Notes under the pieces: generated by a model
What the model was told of the DNA's origin: nothing
Database searches by the model: none
Seen by the model: only the letters and a program-made list of their open reading frames with translations
Program-made: the position numbers and the translations under genes
In this document: in pieces, positions 23,488-36,577 of the stretch
Position numbering within the stretch: the stretch's first letter is position 1
Layout of the letters: each line of letters opens with the position of its first letter
Assembly (NCBI GenBank): GCA_015654675.1
Contig: JAATGM010000011.1
Location: 62,001-126,000 of the forward strand
Length of the DNA stretch: 64,000 nt
Direction: 5' to 3'
DNA from: Planctomycetota bacterium
GTDB taxonomy: Bacteria > Planctomycetota > Phycisphaerae > UBA1845 > UTPLA1

Positions 23488-24360
23488 TTATGGCACGGAA
23501 ACGAATTTTCGGATTGCGTTGATCATTTCAGGAACGCTGGTGGGTTTGGAGAGGTCGAGGGGTAGAAACGTTCCGTGGTTGTGGTCGCTGGCGAGGATGA
23601 TGATGCGTTCGTTGCGCACCGCGAAGCCGGTTTCCTGAGGGATGTGGCCGATGACGAAAAAGTCGACGTCGAGCATTCGCGCGAGCGATTCGAGGTGGGC
23701 GTCGGTGAAGCGTCGTCCCCAGACCAGCGAATAGACCGAGCCGCCTGATTCGAGATCGGCGGGGCGAAGGTCGCGATTGAAGACGGCGGAGTCGAAGGAT
23801 TGGAGATCGTCGGCGGCGGGAAGCGAGTGCGAGATCCAGACTCGGTTGGGGGTTCGGGCAGCGATGGGGAACGAGGCGATAAATTCCATCATTGCGGCGT
23901 AGACCCCGTCGCCGTTTCCGCCGTAGGCTTGGCTGACGCCGCGCTGGAAGTCCTCCAGGACGGCGCGGCCGCCCTTGAGAATCTGATGGGCGGTTAGCTG
24001 GGACAATTCGTGGTTGGACTGGAGGAAATGGACCTGATCGGGGAACTGGCACTTATAGCGGGCGGCTTCCAGCAGCAACTCGTGGGACGGATCGCCGTGG
24101 CCGGGGGCGGTTTCGGTGTGGATCAGCTCGTGAAGAATGACATGGCGAACGGCGGCCTGCTCAAGGCCGGCGTAGCGTTTCAGCTTCTCGAAGTTGGCGC
24201 GATGGCCGTGCATGTCGCCGGTGAGGACGAGCTGGCCATAGTTGGGAAAGTGGAGCATCGAAGCGCGGCGGAGCGGATCAGCTAGATTCTCGGCGGCGGC
24301 CTTGCGGAAAATCGCGATGGCTTCGCTCCCGGTGGTGGGAGCGGGGGGAGTGGCGGTCAC
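23488..24360 (-). CDS. calcineurin-like metallophosphoesterase
   Basis: 290-residue phosphoesterase. Metal-binding motifs are GDMHGH (about 48-53), a SNHE equivalent of GNHE (FLQSNHELSQ), and the C-terminal GHIPQETG with a further SDHNHG. The fold resembles PP1/PP2A-type Ser/Thr phosphatases more than nucleases. Its start overlaps the stop of the upstream protein kinase gene by ATGA, so the two are coupled and are likely an antagonistic kinase/phosphatase pair. Substrates are unknown. The N-terminal 30 residues are low-complexity. Confidence 0.85.
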   Translation of the reverse strand: MTATPPAPTTGSEAIAIFRKAAAENLADPLRRASMLHFPNYGQLVLTGDMHGHRANFEKLKRYAGLEQAAVRHVILHELIHTETAPGHGDPSHELLLEAARYKCQFPDQVHFLQSNHELSQLTAHQILKGGRAVLEDFQRGVSQAYGGNGDGVYAAMMEFIASFPIAARTPNRVWISHSLPAADDLQSFDSAVFNRDLRPADLESGGSVYSLVWGRRFTDAHLESLARMLDVDFFVIGHIPQETGFAVRNERIIILASDHNHGTFLPLDLSKPTSVPEMINAIRKFVSVP

Positions 24361-25322
24361 TTCTTGCCTCCGGGTTTTCCGCTTGTCTTACCCGGCTTGG
24401 CTGCCTTCGCCGCCTTGCCCGCTTTTCCGAGGACGGCTTCCTCGATGGCTTCGCCCGTTTCGGAGACGGTGATGTCTTTTTCACCGGCGGCGCGGCGTCG
24501 ATCGATGACGTGTTTAACAAGCTCCAGGCGGCTGATGACCTGTTTCATGTCGCGCGGCCGATCGGAGGGGCGATCGGCGCAGCACTCCATGACGAGGCGC
24601 GAGAGGGCGGCCGGGATCTCCGGATTGATTTCCTGCGGCGTCGGGATGTGCTTGCGGGGCACGGGATCGACGATGTTGTGGCCGGCGCCTTCGGTCTTGG
24701 CGATCATGGTTGGGAAGCCCTTGCCGGTGAGCACCCAATAGAGGGTTGCGCCGTAATTGAAGACGTCGGTCTGGCGGGTGAGGGGGCGGCGCTCGACCTG
24801 TTCGGGCGCGATGTAGTCGGCGGTGCCCTGAATGCGCTGCTTTTGGTGGCCGATGGGGCAGCTCTGGCCGAAGTCGATGATCTTAATTTCGTCGTCCTTG
24901 CAGACCATGATGTTATTGGGCTTCATGTCGGCGTGGAGATAGCCAGCTTCGTGCATGGCATCGAGGCCGGCGGCGACCTTGACGAACATGTCGACGATGC
25001 GCGCGGCGTCGGTGACGCGGTGCTGGTGGAGACTCATTCCATTGACGAGTTCGAGGACGACCTGGACTTCGTGCAGGCGCATCCACTTCTTGATTTTGTG
25101 GCAGTGGAGGGCCTTGCGCAGGGAGGGGTGGTCGAACTTGCTGGCGACTTCGAATTCGTCGATGGCCTGGATGAGAAAGCGATCGTCTTCGTGGGGCTCG
25201 CGGATGACGCGTTTGAGCGCGAAGCGCTGGCCGGTTTCGGGGTGGACGACTTCGTAAATCTGCGAGCGCGCACCGGTTCCGATTCGCTGCACGATGTTGT
25301 AGCCCGAGAGCAGGTCAGCCAC
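24357..25322 (-). CDS. Hanks-type Ser/Thr protein kinase, soluble
   Basis: 321 residues and no transmembrane segment, unlike the other kinases in the window. The kinase domain fills residues 8-270: IGTGARSQIYEV glycine loop, FALKRVI lysine, YLHADMKPNNIM catalytic loop, IIDFGQ for DFG, and APEQVE. The catalytic loop has HAD where HRD is usual; the Asp, Lys and Asn are kept, so activity is plausible. The C-terminal tail is Lys/Ala/Gly-rich (AGKAAKAAKPGKT), suggesting nucleic-acid or polyanion binding. It is translationally coupled to the downstream phosphoesterase. Confidence 0.9.
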   Translation of the reverse strand: MADLLSGYNIVQRIGTGARSQIYEVVHPETGQRFALKRVIREPHEDDRFLIQAIDEFEVASKFDHPSLRKALHCHKIKKWMRLHEVQVVLELVNGMSLHQHRVTDAARIVDMFVKVAAGLDAMHEAGYLHADMKPNNIMVCKDDEIKIIDFGQSCPIGHQKQRIQGTADYIAPEQVERRPLTRQTDVFNYGATLYWVLTGKGFPTMIAKTEGAGHNIVDPVPRKHIPTPQEINPEIPAALSRLVMECCADRPSDRPRDMKQVISRLELVKHVIDRRRAAGEKDITVSETGEAIEEAVLGKAGKAAKAAKPGKTSGKPGGKK

Positions 25323-27444: not shown

Positions 27445-28305
27445 TCAGCCGAGCAGGGCGTCGTCGGGGAGCGGGGGCGTGGTTTCGGTTGCGATTGCGC
27501 CGTTAAGGATAGCCTGCGCGAAACGAATCGGCTCTGAAACGTTCATCAAATAGAGCTCAACGGGCTGTGCATCGGACTGTTCGATACGGGCGATGCCGCG
27601 GCCGAGTGCGACTTCGATTTTTGACGTGCGGAGGTCGATGCGCTGGAGGAGATCGGCGCGGCCACTCAGGAAGCGAAAGCACAGGACGTCGAGTTGTCCG
27701 GGGGCGACGCGGTAGTAGATGGGGCGCACCCGGCTAAGGCCCCACGCAATCAGGGGAAAGATGGCGAAGAGCGCACCGTAGGCGTAGTAGGGGGCGCGGA
27801 TACTGTTCGGTGCGACGACCGGAAGGGTTTTGTGGATGGCGTAGTAGGCGATGGCCGCCACGATCAGGGCCACCAGCCACGTCCAACCCTTGGTGCCCTG
27901 GGTGACGATCACCGGTTCGAACATGTGAGTTTCGAGCGGGAGGAGGCGGCGAAGGGATGGCGGCCGGCCGCAGGCGCGGACCCGTGCGCCGACTTGCGCC
28001 GGGGGCAGCGGGAGGTCTTCGTCGGGCTTGCGGGCGCGGAACATGACGGCCTGGCTGATCGCGGCGATCAGGATGATGACAAAGAAAAACGTGAACCAGG
28101 CAAACGGCTTCGGCATTCCGATGACTTCGAAGAGAACGAAGAGGAAGAAAACCATCGCGAACGTGTGCGGGAGCCGGCTCAGGGGCGTGGCGTAGCGGTC
28201 GGGAAGGGCGACATCCTGCGTTTCTGTAGAGAGGTCGGGCTCGAAGGAAAGCGGGAGTTTCGGGGCTTCGGCGGTGTTGGTGGCTTGCCGGGGGCGTTTC
28301 GACAT
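27445..28305 (-). CDS. membrane protein with PH-like C-terminal domain, unknown
   Basis: 286 residues with two hydrophobic pairs: about 48-65 and 70-90, then about 140-158 and 172-190. The C-terminal part (YYRVAPGQLDVLCFRF, then QRIDLRTSKIEVALGRG) has the strand pattern of bacterial PH-like domains. The N-terminus is polar and probably cytoplasmic. No function is assigned. The gene starts 115 bases from the divergent ABC exporter gene, so the two may share a regulatory region. Confidence 0.7.
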   Translation of the reverse strand: MSKRPRQATNTAEAPKLPLSFEPDLSTETQDVALPDRYATPLSRLPHTFAMVFFLFVLFEVIGMPKPFAWFTFFFVIILIAAISQAVMFRARKPDEDLPLPPAQVGARVRACGRPPSLRRLLPLETHMFEPVIVTQGTKGWTWLVALIVAAIAYYAIHKTLPVVAPNSIRAPYYAYGALFAIFPLIAWGLSRVRPIYYRVAPGQLDVLCFRFLSGRADLLQRIDLRTSKIEVALGRGIARIEQSDAQPVELYLMNVSEPIRFAQAILNGAIATETTPPLPDDALLG

Positions 28306-28420: not shown

Positions 28421-30718
28421 ATGCGAGTTAAAGGCACAAACAAGCGAGACATTGGCGGGAAGAATCGCGACAAAGGGATGATTTTTCTACGGCGGCTGTG
28501 GAAGTATGTCCGGCCGCAGAAGAGGACGCTCTCGCTCGCCATCGCGAGCATTGTCGTCATGGCGATCAGTTATTCGGCCGGAATCACCGCGATCCTGCCC
28601 ATTCTGACCGTCATGATCGAGCGCAAGAGCGTTCCGGCCTGGGTCAACAACAGCATCGCCGAGGAGCGTCTGCACGCAAAGCTGGACGTCTTCAACCGCG
28701 TGGACACCGGGACCACGGGTCCGCTGGCGGAGTATGACCACGCCGCGCAGCTCACTGCAAAGCCGAGAGAGAAGTCGCCGCTCCTAAAGTTGGCGCGCAA
28801 GGACGATCTGATTATCGCGGCGGATGACCGGCGGATGGATGGGCCGGAGCTGTTTCGCTACATCGCCTCGTTGCCGCAGGACGCGCAGGTGACGCTGACG
28901 CTGGTGAGCGCTCGCGAGTTGAAGCGGACGACTCTCTCCGTCCCGCTGGAAAAGACTGAGCTTCGCTGGCGGGCGGGGCACGCGGCGGCGAGCTTTCTGC
29001 CGAGCGGGACCAGCCGGTCGGACATGCTGCGGACGCTGATTTACATCCTCGGCGTGATGGTGGCGATTTCGCTGGTACAGAATGCAGCGCGGGCGGTGGG
29101 GGAATACCTGGTTGGCGTGGTGGCTGCACGGACGCTGGTAAGCGTGCGGCGCGACATGTACCGCAAGGTTTTGCGGCTTCCGCTGGCGTTTTTCTCGCAG
29201 CACGGCACCAGCGATGTCATGAGCCGGTTTACGCAGGACAGCCAGGACATTTATCGCGGGCTGACCTTTGTGTTCGCGCAGACGGTACGCGAGCCGCTGA
29301 AGTCGCTGGGTGTGTTCGTGTTTGCGCTGTGGCTGGCGCCGAAGGTGACGTTGTTCGCGATTGTCGTCGCGCCGGGGGCGATCGTATTGATTCGCTACTT
29401 CGGCAAGATTGTGCGGCGGGCGAACCGGCGGCTGCTGCAGGGCTTTGCGCGGATGCTGGCGGGCCTGGAGAGCGCCTTGATCGGGATTCGGGTGGTCAAG
29501 GGCTACAACATGGAGCGCTTCGAGCGGCGGCATCTGTTCGGCATCGACTGGACGATGATGCGTCAGCAACTCCGCATCGAGATGGTCGAGGCGGTGATCA
29601 GCCCGGTGTTCGAGTTTCTTGGGATATTCATCGGGGCGCTGGCAACGATCTGGTTTTTCAGCCAGATGCTGGACGGGCAGATGACGCCGGCCGGCTTCAT
29701 GACGATGGTGATCTGCCTGGTGGCGATCTTTGATCCGCTGCGGAAGCTTTCCAATCTCTATACGCGGCTGCAGCGGGCGAACGCGGCAGCGGAACGGGTG
29801 TTCGAGATCATCGATCTACCGGTCGAGGAGCCGTACCGGCCGGGCGGGCTGCCGAACCTCGAGGAGATGCGGCGTGAGATCACTTTTGAAGACTTAACTT
29901 TCACTTATCCGGGGTCGGATCGGCCGGCGGTGCGGGACTTCATGTTGCGCGTGCGCAAGGGGGAGCGCGTTGCGGTCGTTGGTCCGAACGGGTCGGGCAA
30001 GACGACGCTTTTGGCGATCTTGGCGAGGTTTTTCGAGCCGCAGTCGGGGCAAATTCTGTTTGATGGCGAGCCGGTTTCGAATTACTCGCTGCGGTCTCTC
30101 CGACGCCAGATCAGTCTGGTGACGCAGGACTCGATCATTTTCGCGGGCACGGTGCGAGAGAACATTGCCTATGGCGACGAACGCCTGATGCGGCAAATGG
30201 TGTTGCAGGCGCGGCATCCACAGCGGCGATATCCCGAGATCCAGGGTTTGGAGCGGATCGAGGACGCGGCGCGGGCGGCGTATGCCGACGAGTTCATCCG
30301 ACAGATGCCGCAGGGATATGACACGCTGATCGGCGAGCATGGGGCGACGCTGTCTGGCGGGCAGAAGCAGCTGGTGGCGATCGCACGGGCCATTCTGAGG
30401 AATGCGCCGATTTTGATCTTCGACGAGGCAACCAGCCAGATTGACGCCGATAGCGAGAACAAGATTCATCGAGCCGTGGAGGACTTTCTCGCGAATCGGA
30501 CGGGATTCATTATTGCGCATCGGTTCAGCACGATTCTGCAGGCCGACCGCATCGTGTGCATGGACGAGGGCCAGATCGTCGATGTTGGGACGCACTCTGA
30601 ATTGCTGGAGCGCTGTTCGCTCTACAAGACGCTCTTTGAGACGCAGCTCATGGATCGCCGGCCGGAGTCGCGCGTGGTTCGAGAAGCGGAACCCGTTGCA
30701 CCGGTGACGGGTTCGTAA
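28421..30718 (+). CDS. ABC exporter (permease-ATPase) with PDZ-like extracellular insertion
   Basis: Half-transporter of the MsbA/lipid-exporter type, 765 residues. TM1 (about 38-66) and TM2 (203-232) are separated by a loop of some 135 residues, where related exporters have a short one. The loop contains a PDZ-like stretch (126-176: DLIIAADDRRMDGPELFRYI..., VTLTLVSARELKRTTLSV). Further TM helices follow, then a full ATPase domain: GPNGSGKTTL, LVTQDSIIFAG, LSGGQKQ, ILIFDEATSQ and IIAHRFS. It exports an unknown, possibly lipid, substrate. GGAG precedes the ATG. Confidence 0.88.
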   Translation: MRVKGTNKRDIGGKNRDKGMIFLRRLWKYVRPQKRTLSLAIASIVVMAISYSAGITAILPILTVMIERKSVPAWVNNSIAEERLHAKLDVFNRVDTGTTGPLAEYDHAAQLTAKPREKSPLLKLARKDDLIIAADDRRMDGPELFRYIASLPQDAQVTLTLVSARELKRTTLSVPLEKTELRWRAGHAAASFLPSGTSRSDMLRTLIYILGVMVAISLVQNAARAVGEYLVGVVAARTLVSVRRDMYRKVLRLPLAFFSQHGTSDVMSRFTQDSQDIYRGLTFVFAQTVREPLKSLGVFVFALWLAPKVTLFAIVVAPGAIVLIRYFGKIVRRANRRLLQGFARMLAGLESALIGIRVVKGYNMERFERRHLFGIDWTMMRQQLRIEMVEAVISPVFEFLGIFIGALATIWFFSQMLDGQMTPAGFMTMVICLVAIFDPLRKLSNLYTRLQRANAAAERVFEIIDLPVEEPYRPGGLPNLEEMRREITFEDLTFTYPGSDRPAVRDFMLRVRKGERVAVVGPNGSGKTTLLAILARFFEPQSGQILFDGEPVSNYSLRSLRRQISLVTQDSIIFAGTVRENIAYGDERLMRQMVLQARHPQRRYPEIQGLERIEDAARAAYADEFIRQMPQGYDTLIGEHGATLSGGQKQLVAIARAILRNAPILIFDEATSQIDADSENKIHRAVEDFLANRTGFIIAHRFSTILQADRIVCMDEGQIVDVGTHSELLERCSLYKTLFETQLMDRRPESRVVREAEPVAPVTGS

Positions 30719-30808: not shown

Positions 30809-31780
30809 TTACGGTGCGTTCAGCAGACCGTTAACCATCAGGGGGATGTCCATGCCATTGACGCGGGAGTCGTTGTTCAGGTCTCCATAGAAGATGTCGA
30901 AGAAGCTGGTCATGCCGACACCTCCAACAACTTGAACCGGACGGGCCGGGTGGCTCATGCCCATCCCGACGAGCGTGATGAGGTAATCGCCATCGGGCAC
31001 ATCGGTGTCGATGGCGAAGTGGCCATCGTCATCGATGTCGGCGACCTCAACCGAGAAGGGCAGGTCCGTCGGCAGATTCGGCGAGCGCAGCTCGGCCAGC
31101 GCGATGTACGGGGGGAGGATGACTGGCGGAAGCGGGACGAAGCCGCCAATCAGGCCGCTATGAAGTTCGAATGACAGGTCGGTCGTGACCGGATTGGGGC
31201 AGTCGTCCGTGATGGCGCACTGGACCCCGCCCGCGATGTCACGCTGCTGGGCGGTACAGTTGTGGATGGGATGATGAGCCGACCACCGGAAGTCCTCGAC
31301 GCCGACCTGGACGCTGTCGCTATCCAATTCGGAAATCTGGAGCCAGTATTTCTGGCCGCCGGTCGCGAAAAACGGCGGCGTCAGTGTGGCCGTGAAGCGA
31401 TATACGCGGCGGTTCTGACAGTCTTTGCCGGCGTACTTCGTGGAGACGTCGACGCACCAAAAATTTGAGATCTGGCCGGCGTTGCAGGGGACCGGGCAGG
31501 TTCCAGCGGTGACTCCCGGTCGGATGGCGATGAAATACTTGCGCTGAAGCTGGGCCGAGCTCGAGACCGTCCCCCACCAGCGGATCCAGGTGATCTTCGT
31601 TGTCTGTGTGAACTGGAAGTCGTCCATGGCGACGCGGTTCATGGGTTGCGGCGAGGTGCAGGTGAGGACGCGGGATTCGACGGAACCCCAGGGTGCTTTC
31701 CAGGGCTGGTTTTGGGCGGAGGCGACGGTCCCGATGCCGAGCAGGATAATTGCGAGGACTAGTCGATTGGTTTGGATCAT
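30809..31780 (-). CDS. secreted protein with dockerin-like C-terminus, unknown
   Basis: 323 residues: a signal peptide (MIQTNRLVLAII... VASAQ), a Cys-rich beta domain of about 190 residues (QNQPWK... to SFELHS), and a short Ig-like or carboxypeptidase-regulatory-like module (FSVEVADIDDDGHFAIDTDV...YLITLVGMG). A single dockerin-like half follows (YGDLNNDSRVNGMDIPLMVNGLL). The first domain has paired cysteines and several Trp and resembles 'DUF7901-like' planctomycete exoproteins, which is uncertain. The ATG at 31780 has GGAG eight bases upstream; the frame is open further but without signal-peptide logic. Confidence 0.75.
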   Translation of the reverse strand: MIQTNRLVLAIILLGIGTVASAQNQPWKAPWGSVESRVLTCTSPQPMNRVAMDDFQFTQTTKITWIRWWGTVSSSAQLQRKYFIAIRPGVTAGTCPVPCNAGQISNFWCVDVSTKYAGKDCQNRRVYRFTATLTPPFFATGGQKYWLQISELDSDSVQVGVEDFRWSAHHPIHNCTAQQRDIAGGVQCAITDDCPNPVTTDLSFELHSGLIGGFVPLPPVILPPYIALAELRSPNLPTDLPFSVEVADIDDDGHFAIDTDVPDGDYLITLVGMGMSHPARPVQVVGGVGMTSFFDIFYGDLNNDSRVNGMDIPLMVNGLLNAP

Positions 31781-31941
31781 TGAACTGGCTCCTTTTTTCC
31801 GCGCTCCGATCCGCCGGCTCCGAGCCGGGGGTGGGAAGCGACTGGTTTTCTCAGCGGAATGGGACGTGATCCGCCTCGGGAGATAACGCGGAAAGCGGAG
31901 CCGGAGCGGCTCGCGAAATACCGGGATGTGTGGTTGGAGGC

Positions 31942-33162
31942 CTAGTAAACGAGGTTGGCCCATGCGTTGGAAGAGGCAAAGGCACCGTTGCCTACGGCAG
32001 AGAGCACGACGCCCACGGTATTGCCGGGGACGATGTCAAAGGGAATTCCCCCGACGGCGGCAGTGTTTTTGATGATAACGTTTCCCGTGGAGTCGACGTC
32101 TATGCCGCGGTCGTTGGCGGCGACGTTGTTTGCTTCAATGCGGGTCCCGCTACCGGCGGTCGAGGCGAGATGAATACCCGCGCCGTCTCCGACGCCGGCG
32201 CCATTGCCGGTGCAGTCGTTGGTGGCGATGCGGGAGTTGCCGCCTGCCTCAATGCCGTCACCCACGTTCACGCGCGTGGTGCAATTGGCCACGGTGCAGC
32301 CGATCCCGACGATAATTCCATCGCCCCCGTTGCCGCTGCTGGTGCAGCCGAGGACGGTGCTGCCGTTCGAGGCGGCGATTCCGTGGCTGTCGTTGTTGGA
32401 GGCGGTGCAGTTTGAAATGGTGCTGCCGCGTGGCGTGGCGCTGTTGGCGCTGAGGAGGCCGATGCCGCCATTGCCGGTAGCGGTGCAGTTGGTAATCGTG
32501 CAACTGTCGCCGAGGGAGAATCCTTCGGTCGTGTTCATCGAGCTTTCGCAGTTGGCGATGGTGCAGTTGCCACCGGTCTTCACGCCGTAGCTGCCGTTCA
32601 TGCAGGTGGAGATATTGTTCACCACACATTTCTGTCCAGTGGTAATTCCGTCGTCGGAGTTGTTGTTGGCCTGCATGTACATCACGTCGGTGTCTTCGCC
32701 GAAGACGGCGCCGCACTCATTGTCGTCCGTTTCAACCTTTTCAGCCGAGCTACTCGATGCGAGCAGCATGTTGAGACCGATGCCATCCCAACCCGAGATG
32801 ATTCCATTGCGTATGTTGATATTGATTTGGGGGCTGGCGACGAAGATGCCGTGCACGGAACCGGGAACTCCGTGGAGGGCGAAGCCGCTGAGGTCGAGGG
32901 TGACGGCGCTGACATTGATGGTGATTCCGCTCTGACCGGCGACGCCGGTGAGGTCGTCGGTGACGTAGTACGAACCGGCGGCATTGATGCTGAACGGCAG
33001 AGAGGAGATCGGAGTCCGCGGTTCCACTGTGTCGAGGGGAATCATCGATGGCGCGACCGGGCCGGGCGGCGGATTGAGACTGCCGGCGTTCGACCAGATG
33101 GCCAGGGCGCAGGTGATGGCGACGAACAGAGCGGCACGATAGCGGCGTTGATGAGTTGACAT
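31942..33162 (-). CDS. secreted right-handed parallel beta-helix protein
   Basis: 406 residues with a signal peptide (ALFVAITCALAIWSNAGS) and then about 14 turns of a parallel beta-helix. Repeating units read like CTITNCTATGNGGIG, STISNCTASNNDSHG and STVLGCTSSGNGGDG, with Asn and Cys at regular positions that would stack as ladders. The fold is shared by pectate lyases and surface adhesins; no catalytic Asp/Arg pattern could be assigned. A GGAGGGAG motif lies just before the ATG. It is 162 bases from the next secreted protein gene on the same strand. Confidence 0.8.
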   Translation of the reverse strand: MSTHQRRYRAALFVAITCALAIWSNAGSLNPPPGPVAPSMIPLDTVEPRTPISSLPFSINAAGSYYVTDDLTGVAGQSGITINVSAVTLDLSGFALHGVPGSVHGIFVASPQININIRNGIISGWDGIGLNMLLASSSSAEKVETDDNECGAVFGEDTDVMYMQANNNSDDGITTGQKCVVNNISTCMNGSYGVKTGGNCTIANCESSMNTTEGFSLGDSCTITNCTATGNGGIGLLSANSATPRGSTISNCTASNNDSHGIAASNGSTVLGCTSSGNGGDGIIVGIGCTVANCTTRVNVGDGIEAGGNSRIATNDCTGNGAGVGDGAGIHLASTAGSGTRIEANNVAANDRGIDVDSTGNVIIKNTAAVGGIPFDIVPGNTVGVVLSAVGNGAFASSNAWANLVY

Positions 33163-33244
33163 GATTCTCCCTCCGGCCCCGCAATTTCTAATTGGACATT
33201 CAGTGTAGCGATTGGGATGTCCGGCACGAAGCGGATTTCAGGGC

Positions 33245-35743
33245 TTAATCCAACTCCTCGGGCGGGCCCTCGCTGGTCAGTTGGGCGCGATACACGGCGG
33301 CCTCGTCCGGACGGCCGCATTTTTCGTAGAACTCGACCAAGCGGCGCAGGGCCTTTTGCACGGGCTTCTGATCAGTCGTCAGCTTTTGGGATACCGCACG
33401 GTACGCGGTAAGCAGCAATTGCTCGGCCTCGTCGCAGCGCTTGAGTTTCACGAGGCATTCACCGAGGTTGCCGGCGAAGAGGGCGCGGTTGATGTGTTTC
33501 GCGGGGTAGGCGGTTTCGGCGGATTTTCCGAGGGCGCGGAAGATGGGCTCGGCTTCTTCGGGCCTGCCGGCGCGCATGAGGCAGAAGGCGTAGTTGTTGG
33601 CGATAGCCAGGGATTTGGGGTCATTCGGGCCGAGGGCGCGGTTGGAGCTTTCAACAAGCGTGCGGTAACTGGCGAGGGCTTCGGCGCGTTTGCCCATGGC
33701 ATTGCGGACCCAGGCGAGATTGCTGAGTGAGGAGAGCGTGGCGGCGTGATCCGTGCCGAGCACCTCGCCGCGGAGCTGAACCGCGCGAGACAGCATTTGC
33801 TCGGCCTCCGGCAGGCGGTTCTGTTCGCGGAGACAGCCGCCGTAGCTGTTCATGATGGCGAGCGTGGCGGGATCTCGTTCGCCAAAGGCGGCAGCGGCTT
33901 CGAGCGCAGCGCGATAACACTGATCGGCTTCGTCGATAAGGTTAAGTTTGCGAAGGACGCGGGCGAGGTTGTACTGAGCGGCGAGCTTGTCACGCGGGCC
34001 CATTCCATCGACGTGCTCTGCCAGAGCGATGGCACGACGCAGATAAATCCTGGCGTCAGTCCACTGGCCGAGTTGAATAAATACCTCGGCGATATTGATC
34101 ATTGAAATGATTGTGTTGGGATTACTTTCTCCGAGCATGGAGAGGCGAGTATCGAGCGCTGCTTGCTGCAATTTGAGCGCTTCGTCAAATCGGCCGAGGT
34201 GATAATTGACAACGCCGAGCGTATTTTGAAGTCGGGCCTGCAGTTCGGGGTCACCAGCCAGCTGCTGGACCTGCACGGTTCCATTACGGAGTACTTTGTC
34301 GAGGACGACCTGGGCCTTTTCCACTTGGCGCGGGGCGTCTTCGTCAAGTTCGGAACCCTTGAAGAGATCGCGGAGAATTTTGTTCAATTGGTTCACACTT
34401 TGGAGTTGTCGAGTTGCCTCCCTAGCCTTGATCTGTGTTGCAATCATGCCACCCACGAGCGACAGGGTGACGAGAGCGACCGCGGTAACCCCGAGTTTGT
34501 TGCGACGAATGAATTTTCCAGCGCGATAACCAGCAGTTGCCCGGCGGGCGGCAATGGGCTCGCCGGCGAGATGGCGGCGGATGTCTTCGCCGAATTGTTC
34601 GACTGACTTGTAACGGCGCTCGGGTTCCTTTTGCAGGGCCTTCAAGACGATGGTGTCGACGTCTCCACGAAGGCGGCGGCGGAGGCGTTCGGGTTTGCCG
34701 TCGCGGGTTCGGCTGACCGACTCAGGCGTGAGCGTGGCGGCGGGGCCGCCATCGGGGACATCGATCGATTCGATGCGGCTGATTTTCGTGCTGGGGCGCT
34801 CGGGTTCGTCCTCACAGATGCGGCGGGCTATTTCGTGGATGGGCTGGTTGGCGATGGGGTACGGGCGATGGCCGGTGAGGAGTTCGAAGAGGATGACTCC
34901 GAGAGAGTAGACGTCGGTCGCGGTGCTGATGGGCTTGCCGCGGATCTGTTCGGGGCTGGCGTAGGCCGGCGTCATGGGTTGCGCGCCGGTGACCGTTAGC
35001 TGGTGGGCGAGGGCGGAGTCGTCGGCATCAAGCAATTTCGCCAGACCGAAGTCGAGAAGCTTAGGGATGCCCGTCTCGGTGACGAGGATGTTTCCGGGTT
35101 TCAAATCGCGATGGATGACGAGCTTCTGGTGGGCGAAGTTGACGGCTTCGCAGACTCCGCGAAAGAGGTCGAGGCGCTGGGCTGTGTTGAGCTTGTGGTC
35201 ATCGCAGAAGCAGTCGATCGTGCGGCCCTGGATGTACTCCATGACGAGGTAGGGCGTGCCATCGTCGGTCTGGCCGCCGTCGAATAAGCGGGCGATATTG
35301 GGGTGGTCCAGGTTTGCAAGTGTCTGGCGCTCGGTGCGGAAGCGACGAAGGAGTTCGGCGCGCTGGCGCGGTGTGGCGAGCGGATCGCGGCGAATGACCT
35401 TAACGGCGACGTGCTTTTGGTAGGCGTCGTCGGCGCGGATGGCGAGAAAGACCGCGCCCATCCCGCCGGCAGCGATCTGGCGAATGATGCGGTAAGGACC
35501 AACCATTCTTCCCGGAGACAGGTCGAGATCGGGCGGCGGAATGACGGTGGCGACGGCCTGAATGGCCGGTGTTTCAATGAAGTCGGGGTCGCGGTCGTGC
35601 GCGTGGACGTAGGCCTCGGCTTCCGCTCGGAGGACCGGATCTCCACCGCATGCCCGATCGAGGAAGGCGCTGCGGGCGCTCGGGTCGCGTTCGAGCGCGG
35701 ACTCGATAAGGGGTTTGAGTTGTTGCCAACGCTGCGGCGTCAT
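33245..35743 (-). CDS. Ser/Thr protein kinase with TPR tail
   Basis: 832-residue membrane kinase. The N-terminus (MTPQRWQQLKPLIESALERD...) is typical of a large bacterial kinase-TPR family. The kinase domain (about 85-375) has VAVKVIRRD, VIHRDLKPGNILV, LLDFGLAK and a SPEQIRG. A transmembrane helix (LGVTAVALVTLSLVGGMIA) comes next, followed by many TPR or kinesin-light-chain-like repeats. The frame is open to 35860, but the ATG at 35743 fits family starts and leaves 68 bases after the sigma factor gene. Likely the signalling partner of that ECF sigma factor. Confidence 0.92.
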   Translation of the reverse strand: MTPQRWQQLKPLIESALERDPSARSAFLDRACGGDPVLRAEAEAYVHAHDRDPDFIETPAIQAVATVIPPPDLDLSPGRMVGPYRIIRQIAAGGMGAVFLAIRADDAYQKHVAVKVIRRDPLATPRQRAELLRRFRTERQTLANLDHPNIARLFDGGQTDDGTPYLVMEYIQGRTIDCFCDDHKLNTAQRLDLFRGVCEAVNFAHQKLVIHRDLKPGNILVTETGIPKLLDFGLAKLLDADDSALAHQLTVTGAQPMTPAYASPEQIRGKPISTATDVYSLGVILFELLTGHRPYPIANQPIHEIARRICEDEPERPSTKISRIESIDVPDGGPAATLTPESVSRTRDGKPERLRRRLRGDVDTIVLKALQKEPERRYKSVEQFGEDIRRHLAGEPIAARRATAGYRAGKFIRRNKLGVTAVALVTLSLVGGMIATQIKAREATRQLQSVNQLNKILRDLFKGSELDEDAPRQVEKAQVVLDKVLRNGTVQVQQLAGDPELQARLQNTLGVVNYHLGRFDEALKLQQAALDTRLSMLGESNPNTIISMINIAEVFIQLGQWTDARIYLRRAIALAEHVDGMGPRDKLAAQYNLARVLRKLNLIDEADQCYRAALEAAAAFGERDPATLAIMNSYGGCLREQNRLPEAEQMLSRAVQLRGEVLGTDHAATLSSLSNLAWVRNAMGKRAEALASYRTLVESSNRALGPNDPKSLAIANNYAFCLMRAGRPEEAEPIFRALGKSAETAYPAKHINRALFAGNLGECLVKLKRCDEAEQLLLTAYRAVSQKLTTDQKPVQKALRRLVEFYEKCGRPDEAAVYRAQLTSEGPPEELD

Positions 35744-35811
35744 GACACTGGCCACACTGCCTAACGCGAGAAGAGGAGCTGGGACGGCGCAACTAAATTG
35801 CGAGTTTTTTT

Positions 35812-36381
35812 TCAGCCCGGGGCCACTTCGCGGCGGAGCCAGGCCTTGGCGGACGCCCATTCGCGTTTGACGGTCGCGGTCGAAAGATCGAGGACTTCTG
35901 CGGCGTCTTCCACGGAGAGTCCGCCGAAATAGCGCAGCTCGACGATGCGGGCCTGGCGCGAATCGAGTTCGGCGAGACGCGATAGGGCGGCGTCAAGGGC
36001 TTCGAGATCCAGGGCATTGTCCGGGTCGGCTTCCGCGAGGCCGCTGTGCAGCTGAACCCGACCGACTTCGCCGCCGCGCTTTTGTGCGTTGGTGGCGCGG
36101 ACGTAGTCAATCAAGACACGGCGCATAACAGTGGCGGCGACACCGATGAAGTGGGCGCGGTTTTTCCATTGAATCTCACGCTGATTCGCGAGGCGCAGGT
36201 ATGCCTCGTGAAGCAGAGCGGTTGCCTGAAGTGTTTGATCGCGTCGCCCCCGCAGGGCCCGCTCGGCGACGACGTGAAGCTCGCTGTATATCAGCGGCAG
36301 GACTTTGCCGAGGGCGGCGGCATCGCCTGGAGGGACGCTTGCGAGCAGTCGGCTGATGTCTTCCGCTTCCGGGTCTTGCAT
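35812..36381 (-). CDS. ECF sigma factor of the planctomycete kinase-associated type
   Basis: About 189 residues from the ATG at 36381 (frame open to 36489). It matches a well-known ECF subgroup: DISRLLASVPPGDAAALGKVLPLIYSELHVVAERAL, then HEAYLRLANQREIQWKNRAHFIGVAATVMRRVLIDYVR, and the region-4 helix-turn-helix LSVEDAAEVLDLSTATVKREWASAKAWL. Members are routinely encoded next to Hanks kinases, as here with a kinase-TPR gene 68 bases downstream. A phosphorylation link is plausible but not shown by sequence. Confidence 0.92.
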   Translation of the reverse strand: MQDPEAEDISRLLASVPPGDAAALGKVLPLIYSELHVVAERALRGRRDQTLQATALLHEAYLRLANQREIQWKNRAHFIGVAATVMRRVLIDYVRATNAQKRGGEVGRVQLHSGLAEADPDNALDLEALDAALSRLAELDSRQARIVELRYFGGLSVEDAAEVLDLSTATVKREWASAKAWLRREVAPG

Positions 36382-36577
36382 GTTGGCCCGCTCACTTATG
36401 ACGGCTGGTGCGGCTTTGAATACGGTTTTCATTGTCGCATTCACACTCGCGGGCGTCAAAGGCAGTTCAGCGGGCGAGATACGCCTCAAGGCGTGACAAA
36501 GGCGAGGCCGATGAGCGGCTGGGTGCGCGTCGCGGATGCGGTGCGCGCTGAGGACGACAGGTCAGGGAGGACCGACG

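Follow-up and report, generated by a model that had tools for sequence, protein, structure and literature searches.

What is a large folded domain doing in the outer loop of an ABC exporter? This question is raised by an open reading frame of a planctomycete of the class Phycisphaerae (28421..30718, + strand, of the window, that is, the whole stretch of 64,000 nucleotides analysed here), which encodes a half-transporter of 765 residues with a transmembrane domain (TMD), a nucleotide-binding domain (NBD), and a PDZ domain in the loop between the first and second transmembrane helices. A sequence-only reading had pointed to this loop, estimating it at 135 residues in place of the usual short turn, assigning a PDZ-like fold to residues 126-176, and proposing that it could capture a C-terminus or peptide for export.

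The protein itself belongs to the type IV ABC exporters, with six transmembrane helices fused to one NBD carrying the ATPase motifs, and MsbA is its nearest known counterpart. Pfam matched ABC_membrane at residues 190-436 and ABC_tran at 505-672, and the NBD (residues 485-745; 29873..30655, +; delimited by Pfam, motifs, and the structural model) retains all of its motifs intact, namely Walker A (521-529), LSGGQ (644-648), Walker B (D668-E669), and the H-loop (H700). The first 26 positions of the ABC_membrane model remained unmatched, which is expected if a large insertion follows TM1. Consistently, the full-length AlphaFold2 model (alignment of 59 sequences, mean pLDDT 88.6) places TM1 at residues 15-66 (28463..28618, +), behind which come a short helix (71-84), a domain of mixed alpha/beta structure, another helix (181-190), and TM2 (199-251), after which the remainder resembles a type IV exporter, with TM2-TM6 covering residues 199-464 (29015..29812, +; model and alignment to E. 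coli MsbA). Foldseek matches of this model included MsbA, TmrAB, and P-gp, the best being MsbA 6o30 (E 2.8e-31). The gap between TM1 and TM2 measured 132 residues, close to the length claimed earlier, whereas it comprises only about 15 in E. coli MsbA. Separately, the alignment revealed an insertion of about 20 residues within the NBD (591-610; 30191..30250, +) with the conserved pattern LRR.VL..RHP.R.Y, found in 17/17 members of the family of the window's organism (f1) and in none of the other families compared.

The loop is a real, divergent PDZ domain of the HtrA/DegP type, spanning approximately residues 83-177 (28667..28951, +). Modelled alone with 77 aligned relatives, it folded confidently (pLDDT 91.4, pTM 0.85) into a PDZ topology, neither low-complexity nor of another kind, and a Foldseek comparison with the PDB put the PDZ domains of DegP, DegQ, HtrA, MucD, HhoA, and CtpB on top, with DegP as best match (E 6e-5, probability 1.00) and TM-scores near 0.5 across about 105 columns. 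Likewise, a profile of 30 loops matched DegP and DegQ chains of the PDB by hmmsearch (E 2e-7 to 1e-5, best 2.2e-7), the best alignment beginning at the RLG motif on both sides. In hhalign comparisons with PDZ domains of the same genome, the class-wide loop alignment reached 98.6% (E 1.1e-15) and the f1 loops alone 96.9% (E 1.4e-10), as opposed to 0.0-0.7% in controls with reversed or column-shuffled alignments. Furthermore, at E values up to 1, Pfam detected PDZ_6 in 40 and PDZ_2 in 38 of the loops of the 77 relatives (best E 1.5e-9). The window's own loop, searched alone, gave no Pfam match; thus the PDZ domain is divergent there, and a single-sequence search would miss it. The earlier call of a PDZ-like fold therefore holds, but its extent was too short, as residues 126-176 make up only the C-terminal half. 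The domain shares both fold and motif order with the PDZ domains of DegP/DegQ/HtrA and CtpB (an RLG(V) loop, GL..GD.I, a helix, and two strands), from which it differs in lacking a protease, in being inserted between two transmembrane helices, and in that relatives have often lost the glycine of the first motif.

This glycine belongs to the carboxylate-binding loop, which aligns to R83-L84-H85-A86 (28667..28678, +) when the DegP-like PDZ domains are matched from RLG. While the class consensus reads R-L-G-V, the window's copy reads R-L-H-A, with H85 in place of glycine, and deviates from the x-phi-G-phi pattern of PDZ carboxylate loops. By column counts, the glycine is present in 48/95 class members and 5/17 members of the window's family; RLG as a whole is kept in about half of the class, and the signature GL..GD.I class-wide. 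The fold assignment stands despite this loss. However, replacement of glycine by histidine argues that classical C-terminus binding is weakened in the window's PDZ, and such binding appears more plausible in relatives keeping RLG. Sequence change is far more rapid in the PDZ than in the remainder of the exporter: within the family, the fraction of majority residues is 0.38 in the PDZ, compared with 0.75 in TM3-6 and 0.81 in the NBD. In contrast, the two short anchors flanking it hold nearly invariant residues: the N-terminal anchor helix behind TM1 (residues 71-84; 28631..28672, +) carries W74 (89/95) and R83 (86/95), and the C-terminal anchor (residues 181-198; 28961..29014, +), comprising the helix 181-190, carries P194 (86/95).

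How widespread is this architecture? Full-length relatives were found in all 17 genomes of the same family and in most genomes of the same order, and among 150 class genomes loop-spanning matches occurred in most sampled families of the Phycisphaerae, where the PDZ type was judged by reading the sequences and not by testing each loop singly. Among the relatives with a name, the labels are Phycisphaerae, Phycisphaerales, Planctomycetota, and, in one case, Planctomycetaceae. Our survey of occurrence covered the phylum Planctomycetota, and among 294 phylum genomes no loop-spanning match was obtained outside the class at E 1e-20. Planctomycete exporters outside the class have either a coiled-coil-like TM1-TM2 loop (f50 and f100) or a short one; partial matches in f50 were rejected as further PDZ exporters since their loops are coiled-coil-like. 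Such inserts lie between the same anchors (N-terminal parts of L106, L107, L109, L110, L112, L115, L116, L118-L120, and L123-L125). Within the class, f9 and f18 show by eye a different, apparently beta-rich insert (N-terminal parts of L243, L244, and L247), and f4 genomes (L230-L238) encode two exporter copies, one with the PDZ and one with the anchors directly joined. Six f11 genomes (G101, G118, G138, G148, G172, and G182) yielded two loop-spanning matches each, the second in G182 being a fragment. Literature searches for PDZ domains with ABC exporters or MsbA, including in Planctomycetes, returned no title or abstract describing this architecture, in agreement with the earlier impression that a PDZ between TM1 and TM2 is unusual for an exporter. 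Thus, the PDZ-bearing exporter is real, conserved in the class, and, as far as these searches show, so far undescribed.

Phylogenies shed light on the history of the insert. In a first tree, built on columns from TM2 onward with the loop left out, the PDZ-bearing rows formed one class-wide group (support 98/97), which included two PDZ-less exporters. Another tree, built faster and from more rows, in which the base of the PDZ group had moderate support (91), fits one gain of the PDZ and at least three losses, namely in part of f13, in the group of f10/f20/f22/f24/f26, and among the second f4 copies. The distribution is therefore compatible with a single origin at the base of the class-wide clade. 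Loss of the PDZ leaves the flanking anchors in place, the two being simply joined in the second f4 copies, and together with the other insert in f9 and f18 this indicates a TM1-TM2 slot that is stable in position and changeable in content. Moreover, repeated loss with retention of the exporter implies that the exporter can do without the PDZ, and since PDZ-less relatives persist, the family probably does not rely on the PDZ as its main receptor for substrate.

With respect to the substrate, a flippase of the lipid A/LPS type is the leading candidate for what the exporter is. TIGR02203, which models MsbA, the Gram-negative lipid A/LPS flippase and likewise a type IV half-transporter, was the best NCBIfam model, its 466 bits being ahead of all others (e.g. 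351 bits for TAP-like models), and MsbA was thus best by both family model and structural match. The score nevertheless falls below the curated cut-off of 602 bits, which is exceeded by no protein in 61 class genomes, and identity to E. coli MsbA is 33% over TM2 to NBD. In E. coli MsbA, mutation of R78, R148, or K299 disrupts LPS binding at the interior site (PMC10945598). By alignment, R148 corresponds to R290 (kept) and K299 to R441 (a conservative change, invariant in the 59-sequence alignment), so that both positions are basic here too, but R78 has no counterpart. In addition, a stretch of about 7 kb on a single contig of the genome encodes LpxK and LptF/LptG, KdtA and LptD are present as well, and an LPS flippase is therefore expected; LpxK was detected in 147/150 class genomes. 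Co-distribution of the PDZ with LptC was also considered, and was abandoned as the LptC profile proved too weak (28/120 class genomes, mostly marginal).

The gene neighbourhood proved less informative. The surroundings of the exporter gene are of a housekeeping nature, with ftsY upstream and, in between, a divergent gene (27445-28305, -) for a probable membrane protein of 286 residues without significant Pfam match. Farther upstream, a protein kinase gene (24357-25322, -) overlaps a gene for a calcineurin-like phosphoesterase (23488-24360, -), possibly constituting a kinase-phosphatase pair, and downstream open reading frames (30809-36489, -) resemble, by eye, a secreted protein ending in a dockerin, a beta-helix protein, a TPR-repeat kinase, and a sigma factor of ECF-like type. 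A look at co-conserved genes had been advised earlier; across 21 loci there was no conserved neighbour gene. In some relatives the exporter gene lies among dTDP-rhamnose, glycosyltransferase, and heptosyltransferase genes, and wider sampling again showed scattered glycosyltransferase, rhamnose, and heptosyltransferase genes together with housekeeping genes. The neighbourhood was hence set aside as a route to the PDZ partner.

Taken together, we tentatively favour a planctomycete counterpart of MsbA-type lipid/LPS flippases, operating as a homodimer with one accessory, periplasmic docking PDZ per half. According to this model, two TMD-NBD half-transporters would pair and flip a lipid A/LPS-like lipid, while the PDZ of each half, in the periplasmic TM1-TM2 loop and held at the membrane by the two short anchors, would sit as an accessory together with its twin above the exit to the periplasm. 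There, on the release (trans) side of the exporter, which the loop faces, the PDZ may dock a partner from the periplasm or the envelope close to where the lipid is released, serving hand-off or regulation and not substrate binding. The fast evolution of the PDZ, the near-invariant residues of the anchors, and the repeated losses fit an accessory module with a role either in docking a partner or in capping the exit; the swap for a coiled coil or another insert elsewhere and the precedent of BmrCD (see below) point the same way, and the rhamnose, glycosyltransferase, and heptosyltransferase genes around the gene in some relatives count in favour of an MsbA-like flippase. The TIGR02203 score below cut-off, the almost equal score of a second exporter in the genome, the lack of R78, and the unconserved housekeeping neighbourhood speak against this model, as does, for docking in particular, the missing carboxylate-loop glycine in the window's copy and in 12/17 family members.

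Somewhat less probable, but a serious competitor, is that the PDZ acts as a ligand-free structural cap or gate, which would bind no partner and would steer lipid release or couple substrate binding to ATP hydrolysis, a role that has been proposed for the extracellular domain of BmrCD. The degenerate carboxylate-binding loop and the fast-evolving strands of the groove would be readily explained in this way, as would the presence of a coiled coil or a different insert in the slot elsewhere. The MacB extracytoplasmic domain also sits between TM1 and TM2, and it is not known to be a PDZ domain. Such MacB-type (type VII) exporters have a large extracytoplasmic domain as well (PMC11466899), but their FtsX-like membrane fold is unrelated to that of the exporter described here. 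Among type IV exporters, the one structural precedent that we found in the literature is BmrCD of Bacillus subtilis, in which a folded extracellular domain, anchored to TM1 and TM2 of BmrD, caps the TMD, and its deletion abolishes substrate stimulation of the ATPase (PMC10632425). BmrCD differs, however, in being a heterodimeric multidrug exporter whose domain has the fold of the PBP4 C-terminal domain and not that of a PDZ (PMC11466899). Against a cap or gate, the PDZ signature is conserved class-wide, which is more than a mere spacer needs, and on several occasions the PDZ disappeared while the exporter was kept.

A different doubt concerns the cargo and is compatible with either view of the PDZ: the exporter could move another lipid or glycan carrier, for instance a lipid-linked polysaccharide, with the second exporter of the genome (G000:C28) being the true MsbA. 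We consider this rather unlikely, although that protein scores 450 bits with TIGR02203, nearly equal to the 460 bits of the window's exporter in the same comparison, so that an MsbA identity from the score alone was rejected. The occurrence of the gene among rhamnose and glycosyltransferase genes in some families and the unconserved R78 would also agree with another cargo. On the other hand, equivalents of R148 and K299 are missing from the second exporter and present in the window's, on which the model for PglK, a lipid-linked oligosaccharide flippase, reached merely 157 bits.

More daring, and in our estimation improbable, is the idea that planctomycete MsbA-like flippases have a plug-in slot in their TM1-TM2 loop, in which conserved anchors enclose an exchangeable periplasmic module (a PDZ, a coiled coil, another insert, or nothing), and that the Phycisphaerae PDZ reads a periplasmic C-terminus, e.g. 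that of a protein for outer-membrane assembly or transport, thereby tying flipping to envelope assembly. Less probable still, and not supported by these data, is the earlier proposal of a PDZ that captures C-termini or peptides for export. Binding of C-termini is indeed established for bacterial HtrA-type PDZ domains, and TAP-like exporter models match the protein too; yet the loop lies on the periplasmic, trans side, the carboxylate loop is degenerate, exporters persist without the PDZ, and the nearest relatives by profile and structure are lipid flippases, with two of the three LPS-site residues of MsbA kept or conservatively replaced. Likewise, families of precursor peptides, maturation enzymes, or processing peptidases were absent from the 25 commonest Pfam families among about 120 same-strand neighbours. 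Finally, that the loop is an unrelated or low-complexity insert, as the silence of Pfam on the window's own copy might suggest, has become negligible in view of the confident model with its PDZ structural matches, the hhalign scores far above controls, and the Pfam PDZ matches in about half of the relatives.

Beyond this family, our study illustrates that conservation throughout a class is possible even for a domain that single-sequence annotation does not see. The naturally occurring PDZ-plus, PDZ-minus, and swapped slots offer ready controls for the effects of a periplasmic domain on a type IV exporter. And, if true, a protein-docking domain in an LPS-type flippase would physically and directly connect lipid flipping with other envelope machinery in the Planctomycetota, whose envelope has been much debated.
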